Below are positions 46,594 through 57,970 of a DNA stretch of 64,000 bases, piece by piece. The stretch's first letter is position 1, and every line of letters starts with the position of its first letter. The DNA lies in NCBI RefSeq assembly GCF_000761485.1, contig NZ_JPMX01000042.1, positions 1 to 64,000 of the forward strand, read 5' to 3'. The position numbers were made by a program, and so were the translations under genes. Source of the stretch: Modestobacter caceresii (GTDB taxonomy: Bacteria; Actinomycetota; Actinomycetes; Mycobacteriales; Geodermatophilaceae). The notes under the pieces are model-generated. The model saw only the letters and a program-made list of their open reading frames with translations, was not told where the DNA came from and did no database searches.

Positions 46594-49221
46594 TCACACT
46601 CCGGCGCGTGGTCGCGGCAGCGGCACGGGGACGGGTGCGGGGGCGACCACCGCGGGACCGGGGTGGCGCAGCAGGGCGGCCACCTCGGCGACGGTCAGGC
46701 CGGTCGGCAGCACCGGGCCGGAGACGGCGACCACGCCCTGCACGCGCAGCTCGTGGAGCAGCTGCCGGGAGTCGATCTCCTTGGCCACGGTGGACACCTG
46801 GAAGTCGCGGGCACTGCGGCCGATCGCGCCGAGCACCTCCAGTGTCCGGTCGTGGTTGCCGCCGGCCGACAGGTTGCGGACGTCGACCATCACCACCTCC
46901 AGGGGCAGCCGGGAGAGCTGCGACCACAGGGTGGAGCCCATGCCGTAGTCGTCCAGCCCGATCCGGACCCCGGTCCGGTGCACGGCGTGCAGCGCGGGGA
47001 TGAGGGCTGCCGACGAGGTCTGCAGCACCTCCTCGGTGACGAAGAGGGTGAGCCGGGGAGGTGCCAGGTCGACCGCGGCCAGCGCCACGGCCACCTCGCC
47101 GGGCAGCTCGTCGGCGTGCACCAGCCCCGCAGGCAGGTCGACGGCGACGAGCAACTGGTCGTCGAGGGCGGCGACGTCGGCGCAGGCCCGGGTGATCAGC
47201 CACTGCTGCAGGGCCGCGGTGCAGCCCTGCCGTTCGGCGGCGGCCCACAGCTCCGCCGCGGGCAGCGCGCCGAGCTCGGGGTGCAGCCACACGGGCTGGG
47301 CGTGCAGCGCGGCGAGGATGCCGGTGTCGCCGTTGGCGATGGTGTCGAAGCGGAGCTGGACCTCCCCGTCGGCCAGGGCGGTGGCGACGGAGCTGCTGGC
47401 CGCGGCCTGCGCCACCCGGTCGTCGGTGTGCAGCCGCCAGCAGCCCTTGCCGGCCCGCTTGGCGGCGCCGAGGGCGGCGTCGGCCTGGCGGAAGGCGAGC
47501 TGGCCGCCCCCGGGGTGCACCCGGCAGATGCCCACGCTGGCGCCGACGGTGAAGGTGCGGTCGCCGATCCGGCAGGGCCGGGCGAGCACGTCGAGCACCC
47601 GCTGGGCGGCCTCGACGGCGGCGTCCTCGCCCCCGGCCAGCAGCACGGCGAACTCGTCGCCGCCGAGGCGGGCGACCAGGTCGTCGGTGCGCAGCAGGCC
47701 CTGGAGCCGCCGGGCCACCTCGACCAGCAGCAGGTCACCGGCCTCGTGGCCGGCGGAGTCGTTGACCGCCTTGAACCCGTCGAGGTCCAGCACCAGCAGG
47801 GACCGCTCGGCGGTGGTCGCCGACCCGGCGGCCATCTCCTGGAAGAGCAGTGCACGGTTGGGCAGCCGGGTGAGGTGGTCGGTGAACGCCATCCGCTCCA
47901 GCTCCTGCTCGCGGCGTCGCCGGGTGGTCACGTCCCGCAGGTGGAGCACCCGCCGCCCGCTGCCGGGGCGCTCGTGGTGGGTGACCTCCAGGTCCCGGCG
48001 CTCGCCCTCGGGGCCGTGCAGCCGCAGGTGGACCACGGGGGTGACCCCGCCGGCCGCGGTGGTCAGCTCACGGCGGACGCGGGGGCGGTCCTCCTCGTGC
48101 AGCAGGTCCAGCAGCAGGGGGTGCGGGTCGGCCTCGACGACCCCGAGCAGGGTCCGGGCCGCGGGGGAGGTGAACTCGAGGCGGAGCTCGGCGTCCACGA
48201 TCGCCACGCCGTCCGAACTGGCCTCGACCAGGCCGCGGAAGTCCTCCTCGCTGCGCAGCAGGTCCTCCTCGATGCGGTCGCCGTCCCGGATCCGCATGAA
48301 CAGCCGCACCAGCAGCAGGAGGACCACCACGGCGGTGCAGGCCAGCGCGCCGTCGGGGACGCGCAGGTCGAGCAGCAGGGCGGTCACCAGGGTGACCGGC
48401 ACCCCGATCAGGGCCAGGACGTCGATGACCAGGCCGGCGGAGTTCACCGTCGGGGTGGAGTCGGCGGCGGAGGACCGGCCCGGGACGGCGCTGGCCAGCT
48501 GGACGGCGTGGACGGCGGCGACCAGTGCGCCGGCGATCGCCACGTCGGCCGCGGCGGCCCACGTCGTGCCCGGCTGCACGATGTGCACGGCGAGCAGCGC
48601 CGAGGCCAGTCCCAGCAGCCCGGTCATGAGGATCATCGCGGTCGCCGGACGCCGGACGGCCGCGGTCGACACCGTGCACAGGGCCCCGACGACGCCCACG
48701 GCCACCGCGGGGTAGATGCCGTAGGCGAGCACCAGGGGCAGCAGGTCGGGGTCGATCGCGCCCGGCGTCACTGCCGGGGCCAGCACCAGCACGTCGGCGA
48801 CGACGACGAGGGCGAGGGTGACCAGCACCCCGTCGATCACCAGGATCGGCCAGCGGGTGCCGCGGACCCGCCCACCGATCAGCGCGGCGCTGACCGTCGG
48901 CCCGAGGGCCGCGATGAGCACGAGCAGGTCACCCAGGCCCAGTTGGCCGAGCGCACCGCCGACGCCCAGCCCGGTGACCAGGCTGGCGCAGGTGAAGAGC
49001 AGGGAGCTGGCGCCCAGGACCTGCCAGGGCAGCCGGTCGCGGACGTCCATCCCACGGGTGAGCCGGGCGCAGCGCCAGGCCGCCCACCCGCCGAGCGCAG
49101 CCAGCACCAGGTTGTCCCACTGCGGCACGGCCCCGTGCGGACTGGCCGGCACGGCGATGCCCAGGGCGACCAGCGCGCCGAGCAGCACCAGGCTCAGCGG
49201 TGCCCGCCTGACCTGGTTCAC
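46594..49221 (-). CDS. Membrane PAS-GGDEF-EAL protein with intact GGDEF and decayed EAL
   Basis: This 875-residue protein has about nine N-terminal membrane helices, a PAS domain near residues 310-430, a GGDEF domain and an EAL-like domain. The cyclase loop near residue 520 is intact (LGGDEFAVLL) and is preceded by the inhibitory I-site RTDD at the correct five-residue spacing. The EAL domain has lost its marks: EALLRW is replaced by LHAQPVW, the DDFGTG site reads DDYGMG, and the EGVET loop reads KEIDS. It should make but not degrade c-di-GMP. The GTG start overlaps the stop of the partner gene at 49218 by four bases. Confidence 0.88.
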   Translation of the reverse strand: MNQVRRAPLSLVLLGALVALGIAVPASPHGAVPQWDNLVLAALGGWAAWRCARLTRGMDVRDRLPWQVLGASSLLFTCASLVTGLGVGGALGQLGLGDLLVLIAALGPTVSAALIGGRVRGTRWPILVIDGVLVTLALVVVADVLVLAPAVTPGAIDPDLLPLVLAYGIYPAVAVGVVGALCTVSTAAVRRPATAMILMTGLLGLASALLAVHIVQPGTTWAAAADVAIAGALVAAVHAVQLASAVPGRSSAADSTPTVNSAGLVIDVLALIGVPVTLVTALLLDLRVPDGALACTAVVVLLLLVRLFMRIRDGDRIEEDLLRSEEDFRGLVEASSDGVAIVDAELRLEFTSPAARTLLGVVEADPHPLLLDLLHEEDRPRVRRELTTAAGGVTPVVHLRLHGPEGERRDLEVTHHERPGSGRRVLHLRDVTTRRRREQELERMAFTDHLTRLPNRALLFQEMAAGSATTAERSLLVLDLDGFKAVNDSAGHEAGDLLLVEVARRLQGLLRTDDLVARLGGDEFAVLLAGGEDAAVEAAQRVLDVLARPCRIGDRTFTVGASVGICRVHPGGGQLAFRQADAALGAAKRAGKGCWRLHTDDRVAQAAASSSVATALADGEVQLRFDTIANGDTGILAALHAQPVWLHPELGALPAAELWAAAERQGCTAALQQWLITRACADVAALDDQLLVAVDLPAGLVHADELPGEVAVALAAVDLAPPRLTLFVTEEVLQTSSAALIPALHAVHRTGVRIGLDDYGMGSTLWSQLSRLPLEVVMVDVRNLSAGGNHDRTLEVLGAIGRSARDFQVSTVAKEIDSRQLLHELRVQGVVAVSGPVLPTGLTVAEVAALLRHPGPAVVAPAPVPVPLPRPRAGV

Positions 49222-51893
49222 CTCGGCAGTCCGTCGTCCGCGGCCCGGGGCAGCCCCGGTGCCGAGGTGGGCACCGGCGCCCCGCCCAGCCCTGGGAGCT
49301 GGGTGGTCAGCGCGGCCTCGTCCAGCGGCCGGGCCAGCAGGTAGCCCTGGATGAACCGGTGGCCCATGTCGCGCAGCAGCTGCAGCTCGGTCGCCGTCTC
49401 GACGCCCTCCACGACCACGACGAGGCCCAGGCTGGTGCCCAGGTGCAGGACGGAGCTGCACAGTGCCCGGCGCTGCGGGTCGGTCTCGACGTCGGCGAGG
49501 AACTGCCGGTCCATCTTCAGGACGTCGATCGGCAGGCCGACGAGGTAGGCCAGCGAGGACCAGCCGGTGCCGAAGTCGTCGACGGCGATCCGGACACCCA
49601 GCCGCCGCAGGGCGGCCAGGTCGTCGGTCACGTGCTCGTCGTCCAGCAGCACCGACTCGGTGATCTCCAGGACCAGCCGGGAGGCGGACAGCCCACTGGA
49701 CCCCAGGGCCTGGAGCACGTCGGAGACCAGCTCGCCGCTGCGGACGTGCCGCGCCGAGACGTTGACCGCCACCGCCAGGTCCGGGTGCGGGAGTGCGGCG
49801 ACCGTGGCGGTGGCCTCGGCGAGCACCCACCGACCCAGTTCGGTGATCAACGCCGACTCCTCGGCCAGGGGCACGAACTCCGCCGGCGACACCTCGCCGT
49901 ACACGGGGTGCCGCCAGCGCAGCAGCGCCTCGACCGAGACGGTGCGGTGCAGCGCCAGGTCGACGACCGGCTGGTAGACCAGCCGCAGCTGACCCTCGGC
50001 GAGGGCCTGGTGCAGGTCGGTGCGCAGGGTCTCCTCGCGCTGCTGGGTGATCCGGAGGGCGTCGGAGTGCCGGCGGACCCGGCCGGGACCGGCGGCGCGG
50101 GCGCTGCGCAGCGCCAGGTCGCCCCAGCGCAGCGCGTCCCCGGCGTCCGCGTCGGCGTCCAGGGGAGTGACGCCGGCCGCGGCGGTCAGCCGCAGGGTGC
50201 CGTTGCCGATGGCGACCGGCTCGACGGCGGCGACCAGCCGGCCGGCGATCACCTCGGCGTCGGCCACCGTGCCGGAGACCAGGACGGCGAACTCGCTCAC
50301 CCCGGAGCGGGCCAGCCAGTCGTCGCCGCGCAGGGCCCGGGCGAACCGGGTGGTGAGCTCGCGCAGCACCGCGACGTCGTCGCCCGCAGGGAGCCCGTCG
50401 ACGCCCAGCACGACGAGGGAGGCGCTGCTGGCCGACGGGGCGCGGAGGGTGGCGGCGAGGCGCTGGGTCAGGGCCGAGCGGTTGGGCAGGCCGGTCGCCG
50501 GGTCGCTCGTGCTGAAGGTGACCACGGGCTCGGCCGGCTGCGGGGCACTGGCGCTGACGTCCCGGCAGTAGAGCACCAGGGCGCCCACGTCGGGGTCGCC
50601 GCGCAGGTCGCGGACCTGGGACTGGATGAGTCGCCATCGACCGTCGAGGTGCCGCACCCGCGCCGTCCGGGTCTTGGTCTCCATCGGGTCGGTCGAGGCG
50701 GCGCTGAGGGCGGCGACCAGGCCCGGGGCGTCGTCGGGGTGGACGGCGGCGGCGATCGAGTGGCCGACGATGCGCTGGGGGTCCAGGCCGAGCAGCGCGG
50801 TGATGGCGGGGGAGACCCACTGCACCTGCAGCTGGTCGTCGAGGATCAGCACCGGGTCGGCGCTGCCGCGCACCAGCGTGCGGAAGTAGGCCTCGCTGCG
50901 CTGCAGGTCGGTGGTGAGCCGCTGCTGGGTGCGCCAGGACGCCACCTGGTGGGCCAGCAGGGCGCCCAGCCCGAGCACGCCGAGCGTCGTCCCGAAGATG
51001 GTGAGCGTCCCGGTGACCGGGACGCTGAGCAGCAGCAGCGAGCCGCCGGCCAGCGCGGTGGCGTGCGGCAGCATGGCGCCGAGGGCGGAGCCGTCCACGC
51101 GCCCGCGGTCGGCGGTGGGCTGCGGTCGGTCGGCGTGGCAGGCGACCACCAGCAGGGCCAGCCCGAGGACGCTCAGCGCGCAGGCCAGGTACTGGACGTA
51201 GCCCGGCCCGGAGGCGATCGAGGAGCACGCGCCGGCCAGTGCGGTGGCGACCTGGGAGGCGAACAGCAGCCAGCCGACCGGACGCTGGGCGGCGGGGCAG
51301 ACCGCGATGAGGACCAGCGAGAAGCCGGTGCCGAGGGCGATGCTGGACAGCAGCGCGAAGAGCGCGATCGTCTCCGACAGGGCCAGTACGCCGTCCCGGG
51401 CGATGGTCAGGTGGTAGAGCGTGTGCACGGTCAGCAGGTCGGCGATCACGAAGAGCGTGAACATCGTCGCCACCTGCGCCCGGGCGGCCCGGAGCGACGC
51501 CCGGTCGAGCATCCGCAGGATCGCCACGACCACCAGCAGCTGACCGGGGACGCTGCCCAGGGCGGTCTGCCCCCAGGGCAGCACCGACGCGGCGGCCAGG
51601 GCACCGCCGGCGCCCACGGCGACCGAGGCGGCGTACCAGCGCCAGCCGGCCGGGTGGGCGCTCCGGCGCCCGGCGCGGGTGAGGAGGACGAGCACCCCGA
51701 CGACGGCGAGGAAGTTCACCGTCACCGCCACGGTGACGGCGGTCCGTCCCGGCAGCAGCCCGGCGGACAGGGTGGCGCAGGCCGCCAGGACGGAGAGCAG
51801 CAGTGGCCGGCTGAGCGTGCGGACGGCGGCCGGGCCGCCCCGCGTCGGAGCGGCCATGGCCCGCATGGGTGCGGCGAGGGCTCCGGAGGTCAC
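49218..51893 (-). CDS. Membrane PAS-GGDEF-EAL protein with intact EAL and decayed GGDEF
   Basis: This 891-residue protein has about nine N-terminal helices, a PAS domain, a GGDEF-like domain and an EAL phosphodiesterase domain. The cyclase loop near residue 530 reads SGVSEF instead of GGDEF, so cyclase activity is not expected, but RGDD stands at correct I-site spacing. The EAL domain is complete: VEALLRW near residue 654, NVSARH, LEITES, DDFGTGWSSL, LKMDRQF and VEGVET. It should hydrolyse c-di-GMP. It is upstream of and coupled to the cyclase-competent partner. The GTG at 51893 lacks a good site; ATG codons at 51866 and 51857 are alternatives. Confidence 0.88.
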   Translation of the reverse strand: MTSGALAAPMRAMAAPTRGGPAAVRTLSRPLLLSVLAACATLSAGLLPGRTAVTVAVTVNFLAVVGVLVLLTRAGRRSAHPAGWRWYAASVAVGAGGALAAASVLPWGQTALGSVPGQLLVVVAILRMLDRASLRAARAQVATMFTLFVIADLLTVHTLYHLTIARDGVLALSETIALFALLSSIALGTGFSLVLIAVCPAAQRPVGWLLFASQVATALAGACSSIASGPGYVQYLACALSVLGLALLVVACHADRPQPTADRGRVDGSALGAMLPHATALAGGSLLLLSVPVTGTLTIFGTTLGVLGLGALLAHQVASWRTQQRLTTDLQRSEAYFRTLVRGSADPVLILDDQLQVQWVSPAITALLGLDPQRIVGHSIAAAVHPDDAPGLVAALSAASTDPMETKTRTARVRHLDGRWRLIQSQVRDLRGDPDVGALVLYCRDVSASAPQPAEPVVTFSTSDPATGLPNRSALTQRLAATLRAPSASSASLVVLGVDGLPAGDDVAVLRELTTRFARALRGDDWLARSGVSEFAVLVSGTVADAEVIAGRLVAAVEPVAIGNGTLRLTAAAGVTPLDADADAGDALRWGDLALRSARAAGPGRVRRHSDALRITQQREETLRTDLHQALAEGQLRLVYQPVVDLALHRTVSVEALLRWRHPVYGEVSPAEFVPLAEESALITELGRWVLAEATATVAALPHPDLAVAVNVSARHVRSGELVSDVLQALGSSGLSASRLVLEITESVLLDDEHVTDDLAALRRLGVRIAVDDFGTGWSSLAYLVGLPIDVLKMDRQFLADVETDPQRRALCSSVLHLGTSLGLVVVVEGVETATELQLLRDMGHRFIQGYLLARPLDEAALTTQLPGLGGAPVPTSAPGLPRAADDGLPR

Positions 51894-52014
51894 GGATCAG
51901 TTGTCGGACCGCGGGCGGCCGGACTGCACCAGTGGCCGGCGCCACTCACCCGAAGGGGCGGGGGCGGGGGTGGAGGGGCGAGGGCGGAGGGGGCGACCGC
52001 TCAGTCGGGCCGGT

Positions 52015-52396: not shown

Positions 52397-55300
52397 GTGA
52401 AGACGTGGCTGGATGCATGGCCGGTGTTCCGGCAGCTGACGGGTCCTGACCCGCTGGGGCGTGGCAAGGCCGCGCGCAGCAAGGCGACAGAGCAGGTGGT
52501 CAGCCGCACGGCCACCGCCGACAGGGTGGTGCAGTCGGTCTGCCCGTACTGCGCGGTGGGCTGCGGCCAGCGGGTGTTCGTCAAGGACGAGCAGGTCGTG
52601 CAGATCGAGGGCGACCCGGACTCGCCGATCAGCCGCGGCCGGCTCTGCCCCAAGGGCAGCGCCAGCAAGCAGCTGGTCACCAGCCCGAGCCGGGTCACCA
52701 CGGTCAAGTACCGCCGTCCGCACGGGACGGAGTGGGAGGACCTCGACCTGGACACGGCGATGGAGATGATCGCCGACCGCGTGCTCGACGCCCGCCGCAA
52801 GGGCTGGCAGGACGAGGTCGACGGGCACCAGGTGAACCGCACGCTGGGCATCGCGAGCCTCGGCGGGGCGACCCTCGACAACGAGGAGAACTACCTGATG
52901 AAGAAGCTGTACAGCGCCATGGGCGCTGTACAGATCGAGAACCAGGCCCGCATATAGCACTCCGCGACGGTCCCCGGTCTGGGGACCTCGTTCGGTCGTG
53001 GCGGCGCCACGAACTTCCAGCAGGACCTGGTGAACTCCGATTGCATCGTGATCGAGGGTTCGAACATGGCCGAGTGCCACCCGGTCGGCTTCCAGTGGGT
53101 CATGGAGGCCAAGGCGCGGGGCGCGAAGATCGTCCACATCGACCCGCGGTTCACCCGCACCAGCGCGCTGGCCGACCTGCACGTGCCGTTGCGCGCGGGC
53201 ACCGACATCGCCTTCCTCGGCGGGCTCATCAAGTACGTCCTCGACAACGACCTGGACTTCCGCGAGTACGTCGTCGCCTACACCAACGCGGCGGCGATCC
53301 TGCGCGAGGACTTCCAGGACACCGAGGACCTCGACGGCCTGTTCTCCGGCTTCGACCCCGAGACCGGGCAGTACGACGAGACCACCTGGCAGTACGAGGG
53401 CGTCAACGTGCCCTCCTCGGCCGGTCAGCGCTCACCGAGCCAGCCCGGCGGGTCGGCCTTCCGCGAGGACGACCGGCCCGACGACACCGCGGACGACGGC
53501 ACCGACGACGAGACCGAGAGCGTCAAGGAGGCCGACCAGCAGCAGGGCGCGCAGGGCTCGGCCGACATCCACGGCAAGCCGAAGCGGGACGAGACGCTGC
53601 AGCACCCGCGGTGTGTCTTCCAGGTGCTCAAGCGGCACTACGCCCGGTACACCCCGGAGATGGTCAGCGACATCTGCGGCATCGAGCCCGAGGTGTTCCT
53701 CAAGGTCGCCGAGTGGGTCACCGCCAACAGCAACCGCGAGCGGACGACCGCGTGGGTCTACTCGGTGGGCTGGACGCACCACACCGTGGGCGTGCAGTAC
53801 ATCCGGACGGCGTCGGTGCTGCAGGCGCTGCTGGGCAACATGGGCCGCCCGGGCGGCGGGATCCTGGCGCTGCGCGGGCACGCGAGCATCCAGGGCTCCA
53901 CCGACATCCCGACGCTGTTCAACATCCTGCCCGGCTACATCCCGATGCCCCACGCCCAGCAGCACACCGACCTGGACAGCTTCTGCGCCTCCAGCGACGA
54001 CCGGGTGGGCTTCTGGGGCAACATGCGCTCGTACACGACGAGCCTGCTCAAGTCCTGGTGGGGCGACGCGGCGCAGCCGGAGAACGACTTCGCGTTCAAC
54101 TACCTGCCCCGGCTCACCGGCGACCACGGCACGTACACCACGGTCGCCGACATGATCCAGGGGAACGTGCCCGGCTACTTCCTGGTCGGGGAGAACCCGG
54201 CGGTGGGCAGCGCCAACGGCCGGATGCAGCGGTTCGGCCTGGCCAACCTGGAGTGGCTGGTCGTCCGCGACCTGCAGATGATCGAGTCGGCGACGTTCTG
54301 GAAGACGGCCCCGGAGATCGAGACCGGCGAGCTGGTCACCGAGGACATCGCCACCGAGGTCTTCTTCATGCCGGCGGCCACGCACGTGGAGAAGGAGGGC
54401 ACCTTCACCCAGACGCAGCGGCTGCTGCAGTGGCGGCACAAGGCGGTCGAGCCGCCGGGCGAGTGCCGCAGCGACCTGTGGTTCTACTTCCACCTGGGCC
54501 GCAGGCTGCGGGAGAAGCTCGCCGGGTCGACCGACCCGCGGGACCGTCCGCTGCTGGACCTCACCTGGGACTACCCGACGCACGGGGAGCACGACGAGCC
54601 CAGCGCCGACGCCGTCCTGCGGGAGATCAACGGCTGGGGTCCGGACGGCGAGATGCTCTCGACCTACCTGGACATGAAGGACGACGGGTCGACCACCGGC
54701 GGCTGCTGGATCTACACCGGCGTCTACGCCGACGGGGTCAACCAGGCCGCCCGGCGCAAGCCCGGGCGGGAGCAGGACTGGGTGGCCGCCGAGTGGGGCT
54801 GGGCCTGGCCGTCGAACCGCCGGGTGCTCTACAACCGCGCGTCGGCCGACCCCGACGGCAAGCCGTGGAGCGAGCGCAAGGCCTACGTCTGGTGGGACGA
54901 GGAGGCCGGCACGTGGACCGGTCACGACGTCCCCGACTTCGAGGCGACCAAGCGACCGGACTACGTGCCGCCGGAGGGCGCGACCGCGCAGGCCGGCCTC
55001 GGCGGTGCCGACCCGTTCGTCATGCAGGCCGACGGGAAGGCCTGGCTCTACGTGCCGGCCGGTCTGGCCGACGGCCCGATGCCGGCGCACTACGAGCCGG
55101 CCGAGTCGCCGGTGGAGAACGCGCTCTACGGCCAGCAGGCCAACCCGGGTCGGGAGGAGATCCAGGGGGCGTGGAACCGGGGCAACCCGCCGCGCAGCAC
55201 GGTCTACCCCTACGCGATGACCACCTACCGGCTGACCGAGCACCACACCGCCGGTGGGATGAGCCGAACGCTGCCCTACCTGTCGGAGCTGCAGCCGGAG

Positions 55301-55714
55301 TTCTTCGTGGAGGTCAGCCCACAGCTGGCCGAGGAGCGCGGGCTGGAGAACGGCGGCTGGGCGACGCTGATCAGCGCCCGGACGGCGATCGAGGCCCGGG
55401 TGCTGGTCACCGAGCGGATCCGGCCGATGAAGCTCAAGGGCGGCCAGGTCGTCGAGCAGATCGGCATCCCCTACCACTGGGGCGAGCAGGGACTGTCCAC
55501 GGGCGACTCGGGCAACGACCTGTTCGGCGTGGTGATGGACCCGAACGTGCACATCCAGGAGACGAAGGTCGCCACCTGCGACATCCAGCCCGGGCGGCGT
55601 CCGCGCGGCAAGGCGCTGGTGCAGTACGTGGAGGACTACCGGATCCGGGCGGGCGTCCAGTCGGGCCTGGTCCCCAGTGGCGGCCGGGCCCCGATCGAGG
55701 AGGGGACGAGCTGA
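52397..55714 (+). CDS. fdhA: Formate dehydrogenase catalytic subunit with UAG-encoded selenocysteine
   Basis: This 1105-residue molybdo/tungsto-bis-MGD enzyme oxidises formate to CO2. A [4Fe-4S] cluster is held by Cys49, 52, 56 and 84 (SVCPYCAVGCG, GRLCPKGS). The frame meets TAG at codon 187 (52955-52957), exactly where homologues have selenocysteine or Cys (NQARI-U-HSATV), and then stays open for 918 codons through normal FDH sequence (GLGTSFGRGGATNFQQD, MAECHPVGFQWVMEAKARG). A SECIS hairpin follows at 52969. No Tat signal is present, so the enzyme faces the cytoplasm. An acidic low-complexity insert lies near residues 337-395. GTG 52397 matches the usual actinobacterial N-terminus. Standard gene calling would split it into two fragments. 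Confidence 0.93.
52955..52957 (+). other. TAG codon read as selenocysteine (Sec187 of FdhA)
   Basis: The codon follows CGC ATA (Arg-Ile) and precedes CAC (His), the invariant surroundings of the Sec/Cys molybdenum ligand. Sec is normally UGA. UAG-Sec with a matching tRNA-Sec(CUA) has been reported for Geodermatophilus and Blastococcus. TAG is also the ordinary stop of genes at 17696 and 58107 in this window. Confidence 0.9.
52969..52987 (+). promoter_or_regulatory. Bacterial SECIS element
   Basis: GGTCCCC (52969-52975) and GGGGACC (52981-52987) form a perfect seven-pair stem with a GGTCT loop. The loop equals the GGUCU of the Escherichia coli fdhF SECIS, whose G and U bind SelB. The stem starts 11 bases after the TAG and the loop 18 bases after it, inside the bacterial range. 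The element is within the coding sequence. Confidence 0.9.
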
Positions 55715-55745
55715 TGCGGCTCGACCCGATGGAAGAGGAGCGCTC

Positions 55746-56873
55746 GTGACGACCGTCAGCTCGGCGAGCCCGGCGCTCACCGGCAACGACCCGGCCAACC
55801 GGCTCTACGGTCCGCTGCCCGATGTGAGCGGGGAGGCCGGCTACGCGGAGGACCACCCCGCGCGGGTGGGCTTCTTCACCGACACCTCGGTGTGCATCGG
55901 CTGCAAGGCCTGCGAGGTCGCCTGCAAGGAGTGGAACACGCTCCCGATGGACGACGCGGACGGCAACCGCGACGCCATGGCGCTGACCGGGATGTCCTAC
56001 GACAACACCGGCATGCTCGGGGCCAGCTCCTGGCGGCACGTGGCGTTCGTCGAGCAGAGCCGGGCCGTCGACCTCCCCATGCCGGGGGTCGGGCTGCCGG
56101 GCGCCGGTGGCGCGGGTGCCGCCGCACCCGCGGCCGGCTGCGGCAGCGGCGGGGGCTGTGGGGGTGGCTCGGTCGACCCGCACGCCGTCTCGGCCGGTGG
56201 CGACGCCGACGGCGGGCTGACCGCGCAGTCCAGCGTGCTCAACGCCGAGGCGCTCAGCGAGTTCGACCCGCAGACCGGCCACTCGGCCGACCGGGAGATC
56301 CGCTGGCTGATGTCCTCGGACGTGTGCAAGCACTGCACGCACGCCGGCTGCCTGGACGTCTGCCCGACCGGGGCGCTGTTCCGCACCGAGTTCGGCACCG
56401 TGGTCGTGCAGGGCGACATCTGCAACGGCTGCGGCTACTGCGTGCCGGCCTGCCCCTACGGCGTCATCGACCAGCGCAAGGACGACGGCCGGGTCTTCAA
56501 GTGCACGATGTGCTACGACCGGCTCACCGACGGCCTGCAGCCGGCGTGCGCCACCGCGTGCCCCACCCAGTCGATCCAGTTCGGCGACCTCGACGAGCTC
56601 CAGGCCCGGGCCGATGCCCGGCTGGCGACGCTCAAGGAGCAGGGTGTGGAGACCGCCCGGCTCTACGGGCGGGACGAGGACGACGGCGTCGGCGGTGCCG
56701 GGGCGTTCTTCCTGCTGCTCGACGAGCCGGAGGTCTACGGACTCCCGCCGGACCCGATCGTCACCACCCGGGACCTGCCGTCGATGTGGAAGCACGCCGT
56801 CGGCGGGGCCGCCATGGTGGTCGGCTTCGCGCTCTCGGCCGTGCTCGGTTCCCGGAAGGGGCTGCGCCGATGA
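55746..56873 (+). CDS. fdhB: Formate dehydrogenase iron-sulfur subunit with a Gly/Cys-rich insert
   Basis: This 375-residue electron-transfer subunit carries four [4Fe-4S] clusters from FdhA to the membrane. Cysteine sets are CIGCKACEVACKE (Cys50-60), CKHCTHAGCLDVCP, CNGCGYCVPACPYG and CTMCYDRL with ACATACP. Between the first and second sets is an insert of about 60 residues containing GCGSGGGCGGGS. A hydrophobic C-terminal segment (AMVVGFALSAVLG) probably anchors it. The GTG at 55746 is preferred because GAGGAGC lies just upstream; it begins 31 bp after fdhA. It overlaps the membrane subunit gene by four bases. Confidence 0.92.
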   Translation: MTTVSSASPALTGNDPANRLYGPLPDVSGEAGYAEDHPARVGFFTDTSVCIGCKACEVACKEWNTLPMDDADGNRDAMALTGMSYDNTGMLGASSWRHVAFVEQSRAVDLPMPGVGLPGAGGAGAAAPAAGCGSGGGCGGGSVDPHAVSAGGDADGGLTAQSSVLNAEALSEFDPQTGHSADREIRWLMSSDVCKHCTHAGCLDVCPTGALFRTEFGTVVVQGDICNGCGYCVPACPYGVIDQRKDDGRVFKCTMCYDRLTDGLQPACATACPTQSIQFGDLDELQARADARLATLKEQGVETARLYGRDEDDGVGGAGAFFLLLDEPEVYGLPPDPIVTTRDLPSMWKHAVGGAAMVVGFALSAVLGSRKGLRR

Positions 56874-57970
56874 CCGAGGGACTGGCGACGCCGGGCGCCG
56901 GTTGGCGCCGGGCCGACGGCCCGCCGGCGCAGGCGCGGGAGAAGAAGCGGCGCAAGGGCGGCCGGCGCGGCGGTGGCCGGGACGGCGACCCGACCGTCGA
57001 CGAGGCCGAGTTCACCTCGTACTACGGCCGCCCCATCATCAAGCCGCCGGTGTGGAAGACCCCGGACGTGCCGCTGTACCTGTTCCTGGGCGGCGCGGCG
57101 GGCTCGTCGGCAGTGCTCGGCGCGATCGCGGACGTGACCGGGCGCCCGGCGCTGACCCGGGCCGCGCACTACACCGCCGGCGGCGGGGCGCTGGCCTCGG
57201 TGGTCTGGCTGATCCACGACCTCGGGCGGCCGGCGCGGTTCCTGCACATGCTGCGGGTGATCAAGCCGACGTCGCCGCTGTCGGTGGGCTCCTACATCCT
57301 GGCGCCGTTCAGCGCCCTCACCGCGGCGACCGCGGGGATCCAGCTGCTGGAGGCCTTCCCCGGTCTGCAGAAGTTCGGGCTGCGCCGGATCGCCGGCTGG
57401 TTCCCTGCGCTGCGGAAGGTCGTGGGGAGCACCTCTGCGGTCTTCGGTGGTCCGATGACCACGTACACGGCGGTGCTGCTGGCCAACACCGCGGTGCCGT
57501 CGTGGCACGAGCCGTACAAGGAGCTCCCGTTCGTCTTCGCCGGCTCCGGGATGGCGGCCGGCGGTGGCATCTGCATGGCGTTCACCCCGGTCGACGAGGC
57601 CGGGCCCGCGCGGAAGATGGCGGTCGCCGGCGCGGCGGTCGAGCTGGCCGCGATGCACAAGGTCGAGCACGACCACGGCATCGTCGGTGAGCCTTACCAG
57701 CTGGGCAAGGCGGGCACCATGATGAAGGCCGCGAAGGCCTGCACCGCCAGCGGTGCCGGGCTGACCGTGGTGGCCGGCCGCACCCGGGTCGGTGCCGCGG
57801 TCTCCGGTGCGCTGCTGGCCGCCGGCTCGCTGCTCACCCGGTTCGGGGTCTTCGAGGCCGGCATGGCCAGCGCGCGGGACCCGAAGTACACGGTGGTCCC
57901 GCAGCGGGCACGGATGGCCGCCCGCGAGGAGCAGGCGCGCCAGGACGAGGCCCGCTCCGTCACCCGCTGA
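56870..57970 (+). CDS. NrfD/PsrC-type membrane subunit of formate dehydrogenase
   Basis: This 366-residue quinone-reducing membrane subunit has about eight helices after a 50-residue basic cytoplasmic tail (EKKRRKGGRRGGGR). Family features include VPLYLFLGGAAGSSAVLGA, VWLIHDLGRPARFLHMLRV and FGGPMTTYTAVLLANTAVP. It replaces the cytochrome b subunit of the Escherichia coli FdnGHI enzyme and needs no haem. It would pass formate electrons to menaquinone. It overlaps fdhB by four bases and is the last gene before the terminator at 57985. Confidence 0.9.
   Translation: MTEGLATPGAGWRRADGPPAQAREKKRRKGGRRGGGRDGDPTVDEAEFTSYYGRPIIKPPVWKTPDVPLYLFLGGAAGSSAVLGAIADVTGRPALTRAAHYTAGGGALASVVWLIHDLGRPARFLHMLRVIKPTSPLSVGSYILAPFSALTAATAGIQLLEAFPGLQKFGLRRIAGWFPALRKVVGSTSAVFGGPMTTYTAVLLANTAVPSWHEPYKELPFVFAGSGMAAGGGICMAFTPVDEAGPARKMAVAGAAVELAAMHKVEHDHGIVGEPYQLGKAGTMMKAAKACTASGAGLTVVAGRTRVGAAVSGALLAAGSLLTRFGVFEAGMASARDPKYTVVPQRARMAAREEQARQDEARSVTR

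Follow-up and report, generated by a model that had tools for sequence, protein, structure and literature searches.

The window analysed here, a 64,000-nucleotide stretch of contig NZ_JPMX01000042.1 of Modestobacter caceresii, contains a frame for the alpha subunit of a formate dehydrogenase (fdhA; Table 1), which runs from a predicted GTG start to a TGA terminal codon and holds a single internal stop, a TAG at codon 187 that is followed by 918 further codons. The translated frame matched NCBIfam NF041513 (formate_DH_Act) over residues 4-1082 with 1961.8 bits (cut-off 1400), as well as Pfam Molybdop_Fe4S4, Molybdopterin, and Molydop_binding, which confirms that normal FDH sequence extends past the TAG, as a sequence-only reading of this DNA had claimed. 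Its companion claim, that the TAG stands in frame at the Sec/Cys position of the enzyme, was borne out by printed alignments to solved FDHs, which place the codon on the X (Sec) of both 1h0h_A and 1kqf_A. On sequence grounds, FdhA is an FDH-N-like alpha subunit. An acidic, low-complexity segment (residues 335-389; window 53399-53563) is absent from all three alignments printed against solved FDHs.

Downstream of fdhA lie a frame with 4Fe-4S and FDH-beta-like matches and another whose NrfD and NrfD_2 matches occupy frame residues 375-660 (about 57014-57871). Since both frames are 3' of fdhA, the cluster looks like a predicted fdhABC operon. Just upstream, on the opposite strand, a frame with PAS, GGDEF, and EAL domains extends over 46594-51945 (-).

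Table 1. Features discussed in the text, with their location and basis
Feature	Sequence	Position	Strand	Remarks
fdhA, formate dehydrogenase alpha subunit	window	52397..55714	+	one TAG read through; 1105 aa
TAG, codon 187, Sec position	window	52955..52957	+	frame reading and alignment to solved FDHs
SECIS-like hairpin	window	52969..52987	+	7-bp stem; loop GGTCT at 52976-52980; stem begins 11 nt past the TAG
fdhB frame	window	55677..56873	+	4Fe-4S / FDH-beta-like matches; overlaps the fdhA end; frame limits, not gene start
Frame holding NrfD-type membrane subunit	window	55892..57970	+	NrfD, NrfD_2 matches; frame limits, not gene start
tRNA-Sec gene, anticodon CUA	contig C64	12295-12386	-	64.2 bits (gathering 47)
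selD	contig C64	20228-21136	+	385 bits
Coriobacteriia MAG segments (L218)	JAUNNF010000009.1	4895-6205, 10310-10795, 15597-15689		GrdB/GrdA TAG sites and tRNA-Sec(CUA)

We compared the Sec codon with that of UGA- and Cys-containing homologues, a check that the sequence-only reading had proposed. Codon-by-codon reading revealed TAG at this residue in 47 of 47 loci from Geodermatophilaceae, a non-random sample made up of best matches and 12 hand-picked further copies, and TGA in 27 of 28 loci from other families, the remaining one carrying a Cys codon. The same set served to evaluate the SECIS-like hairpin that follows the TAG. For every one of its seven pairs, 45 to 47 of the 47 TAG rows show standard pairing. 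The most informative one, pair 17-29, joins two third codon positions at which changes are synonymous (Val GTC/GTG with Gly GGG/GGT/GGC); it is standard in all 47 TAG rows and switches in step from GTC/GGG to GTG/GGT or GTG/GGC. On the tree of these proteins, the covariation agreed in 6 of 6 independent contrasts (p 0.031), or 7 of 7 when TGA rows were included (p 0.016). Covariation was weaker at the outer pair 14-32 (about 3 of 4 contrasts, p 0.25), which is standard in 10 of the 27 TGA rows, as against 26 or 27 for the other six pairs. In L208, the sole Cys homologue read, three of the hairpin's seven pairs are broken. Its folding energy does not stand out (z -1.71; 15 of 200 shuffles were equally good), and the Rfam SECIS families gave no match to the hairpin. 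The pattern TAG-N11-GG..GGTCT..CC, devised after viewing the site, has a single match in the window and none in 100 shuffles. Judged by its pairing and by the covariation at one pair, a SECIS-like hairpin follows the fdhA TAG.

The sequence-only reading had made its case depend on a tRNA-Sec(CUA) and SelB, whose absence from the genome it named as refutation; both were found on contig C64, along with selA and selD, in a search of 139 contigs. Among the 150 of 1250 first-look tRNA-Sec candidates that were scored, two exceeded the RF01852 cut-off, namely the tRNA-Sec(CUA) and one tRNA-Ser(TGA), and four weaker matches corresponded to tRNA-Gly, two tRNA-Ser, and tRNA-Leu; no tRNA-Sec(UCA) was found among them. 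The tRNA-Sec(CUA) gene is followed by selA and then selB, with profile scores of 313.6 and 271.7 bits, respectively, which are over cut-off, as is that of selD. Over 3868 aligned bases, the selAB region shares 95.8% identity with Modestobacter sp. VKM Ac-2977. The encoded SelB has the GTPase domains and a C-terminal wing_3 domain; Pfam SelB-wing_2 matched neither this protein nor anything else in the genome, the E. coli control being positive.

Stop codon usage was surveyed in 364 kb (the window, most of contig C118, and part of C64) with a simple home-made gene finder. The stop is TGA in 294 of 323 predicted genes, TAG in 29, one of which is the N-terminal piece of FdhA, and TAA in none. Inspection of two TAG gene ends evidenced a spacer and then another gene after each, and UAG, as judged by gene prediction only, is used as a stop elsewhere in this genome. 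We also considered a downstream coding score as proof of read-through. It ranked fdhA first of 323, but 35 of the 323 exceed 20; because the gene that follows is often in the same frame, the score was discarded for this purpose. The two other top-ranking TAG cases look like ordinary neighbours. Placing Sec on the rarer stop may reduce the cost of competition with termination.

Collectively, the codon position, the hairpin, the tRNA-Sec(CUA), selA, selB, and selD, and the agreement of codon and tRNA across genomes described below support the reading of fdhA as a gene for a selenocysteine formate dehydrogenase with UAG as the Sec codon, to which we assign a probability of roughly 0.95. According to the established bacterial pathway, SerRS would load serine onto tRNA-Sec(CUA), and SelA, using selenophosphate from SelD, would convert the serine to Sec on the tRNA. 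SelB-GTP, tethered by the hairpin 11 nt past the UAG, would then deliver Sec-tRNA to the ribosome, so that the fdhA UAG would be decoded as Sec while release factor 1 competes for it, and UAG codons without the hairpin would terminate other genes.

Other explanations of the TAG are conceivable. A lone in-frame stop is how a decaying gene looks, and the TAG could accordingly have replaced a TGA or Cys codon by nonsense mutation, in a pseudogene or through a sequencing error. Yet the same residue is TAG in 47 of 47 in-family loci read, spread over five groups of the tree as drawn, the rest of the frame is intact, the hairpin is conserved, and a matching tRNA is present, all of which makes this explanation scarcely credible. 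Decoding of the UAG as pyrrolysine might be proposed on the grounds that ARAGORN labels the CUA tRNA on C64 as tRNA-Pyl(cta). However, tRNA-Sec is the only Rfam family that matches this locus at E<=0.01, selA and selB adjoin the tRNA gene, and the TAG residue coincides with the Sec position of FDH, so that we regard pyrrolysine as extremely improbable too. Slightly less far-fetched, albeit still very unlikely, is that the tRNA is a plain suppressor and the UAG is read as serine or another standard residue. Indeed, tRNA-Sec is known to be initially charged with serine; on the other hand, selA, selB, selD, and the hairpin have all been retained, and a TGA stands in 72 of the 73 rows listed outside the family. 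Insertion of Sec at the fdhA UAG is the reading we retain.

We then asked how widely this arrangement is distributed, scoring up to 6 candidates per genome in a survey of Geodermatophilaceae and up to 2 in a survey of the order. An FdhA match was found in 100 of 112 family genomes and the tRNA-Sec(CUA) pattern in 101, with both in 98, FdhA only in 2, the tRNA only in 3, and neither in 9, the last belonging to genera g6-g8. The five one-component genomes are 67-81% complete. A TAG was reported in the match over the Sec site in 98 of the 100 FdhA-bearing genomes; the codon position itself was read in the 47 loci mentioned above, and the others are scored as having a TAG somewhere in the match over the site. 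The two genomes left out of the 98 offer no readable site: in G034 the match begins past it, and in G080 both FdhA copies (L247, L248) are devoid of the Sec-site segment, yet the tRNA-Sec(CUA) pattern is present. Either a deletion or an assembly fault would account for the segment missing from G080. One locus (L032) was considered as doubly recoded, with TGA and TAG, and rejected; its TGA, the sole one reported in the family, is the gene's own terminal stop. The survey of the order took in 397 genomes, and among the 73 rows listed from outside the family, 72 contain one TGA and one contains none. The sequence-only reading had called UAG-Sec a rare code variant, described to its knowledge only for Geodermatophilus and Blastococcus; the trait extends beyond these two genera, most of the family having the pattern.

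A scan of genome contigs for the tRNA-Sec(CUA) pattern returned at least 117 stretches. The Rfam check covered 34 of the 117, those titled outside Geodermatophilaceae, and recovered tRNA-Sec in four (L067, L078, L111, and L157) but not in the remaining 30. Three of the four align best with Geodermatophilaceae loci (84.5, 83.2, and 81.1% identity for L067, L078, and L111, respectively). L078 (1-4845), a 4.8-kb contig binned with Jatrophihabitans, bears tRNA-Sec(CUA), and its 83.2% identity is to a Geodermatophilus locus. Both FdhA copies found in this bin have TGA, a clash between tRNA and codon that a stray contig would possibly explain. In an Erysipelotrichaceae MAG, a tRNA with anticodon CTA (L129, 2779-2868, -) matches the Rfam tRNA family rather than tRNA-Sec; it is a possible amber suppressor.

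The relationship between Sec codon and host was further addressed with a tree of 75 FdhA proteins, built with a quick method under LG+G4. TAG on this tree entails at least 5 codon changes, equal to the number forced by the starred branches, a count that does not tell gain from loss. The drawn tree places the TAG rows in five groups, namely a main clade of 39, L192, L193-194, L195, and L196-199, and the four small ones adjoin TGA copies from other families. A single clade of all 47 TAG rows was rejected (AU p 8e-8), and so was joining the main clade with each other TAG group (p 0.0014, 4e-120, 6e-38, and 0.0021); the small groups were defined after viewing the tree, and each was tested against the main clade only. 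Because TGA is used outside the family, we infer that it is ancestral to TAG in FdhA. Transfer and old duplication are both compatible with the tree comparison as sources of the TAG groups. The Sec codon of FdhA thus appears to track the anticodon of the host's tRNA-Sec, that is, the codon follows the host's tRNA.

Another locus reached through the tRNA pattern scan belongs to a Coriobacteriia MAG (JAUNNF010000009.1), which appears to carry a separate case and likewise speaks against confinement of UAG-Sec to Geodermatophilus and Blastococcus. Its grdB has a TAG at codon 351, before GTCTRC, and its grdA a TAG within CFV-U-TSAG, and the same contig bears selA and selB beside the tRNA-Sec(CUA) (64.2 bits), as well as a selD-like gene. 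Rfam SECIS_4 matched right after the grdB TAG (55.7 bits, gathering 38), and no Rfam SECIS was found at the grdA TAG; the grdB and grdA stretches fold no better than shuffles (z 1.11 and -0.14). GrdB was detected in 12 of 138 genomes searched as the MAG's family, with TAG in the MAG copy and TGA in 20 others. Similarly, three stretches from relatives have TGA in grdB (3 of 3) and in grdA (both stretches that contain it), and a search for tRNA-Sec in these three stretches found none. One gene on the MAG contig terminates in TAG. On these data from one MAG contig, the Coriobacteriia UAG-Sec is apparently of separate origin.

UAG-Sec was reportedly described in Geodermatophilus and Blastococcus by Mukai et al. 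in 2016, whose abstract is said to demonstrate it by 75Se labelling or mass spectrometry. According to PMC5330540, three genomes of Geodermatophilaceae have tRNA-Sec(CUA), and Blastococcus saxobsidens has an AhpC with UAG; for FDH and UGSC, that paper refers to Mukai et al. 2016. PMC10778597, PMC8124441, and PMC7609411 mention further anticodons of tRNA-Sec or further Sec codons. The main text of a 2026 review (PMC13188914) contains no words beginning with 'geodermato' or 'coriobacter'. A limited literature search found nothing on selenocysteine in Modestobacter, nor on Coriobacteriia together with selenocysteine and UAG, and either may have appeared in print before. The locus resembles the published Geodermatophilaceae system in family, tRNA-Sec(CUA), and an FDH whose Sec codon is TAG, and differs in coming from a Modestobacter genome and in that UGSC (PF24696), part of that system, gave no match here, although control genomes gave none either. 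With E. coli fdhF (FDH-H), it shares the GGTCT loop, equally far from the Sec codon in both, and similar surrounding protein sequence, whereas fdhF has a UGA codon and another stem, and FdhA is FDH-N-like, with beta and NrfD-like frames after it. The Coriobacteriia MAG is alike in having tRNA-Sec(CUA) beside selA/selB and TAG at Sec sites, but differs in its 35% G+C (first locus), its selenoproteins (GrdA and GrdB), and its relatives, which report TGA.

UAG-Sec is already published for Geodermatophilaceae, and the fdhA studied here is ordinary for the family. That UAG recurs in FDH copies whose nearest groups on the tree carry UGA provides evolutionary evidence of UAG decoding that is independent of labelling. 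The Coriobacteriia case, if upheld, would be a second example of a joint change of Sec codon and tRNA anticodon. We consider it likely that bacteria have shifted their Sec codon from UGA to UAG on at least two occasions, once in Geodermatophilaceae, where every FDH copy with a readable site carries UAG in keeping with the tRNA-Sec(CUA), and separately in a Coriobacteriia lineage whose grdA and grdB changed along with the selC anticodon. The codon would then be a host property to which selenoprotein genes must conform when they arrive or are duplicated, a natural barrier to gene exchange. The Modestobacter genome thereby joins a natural code variant that spans most of a bacterial family.
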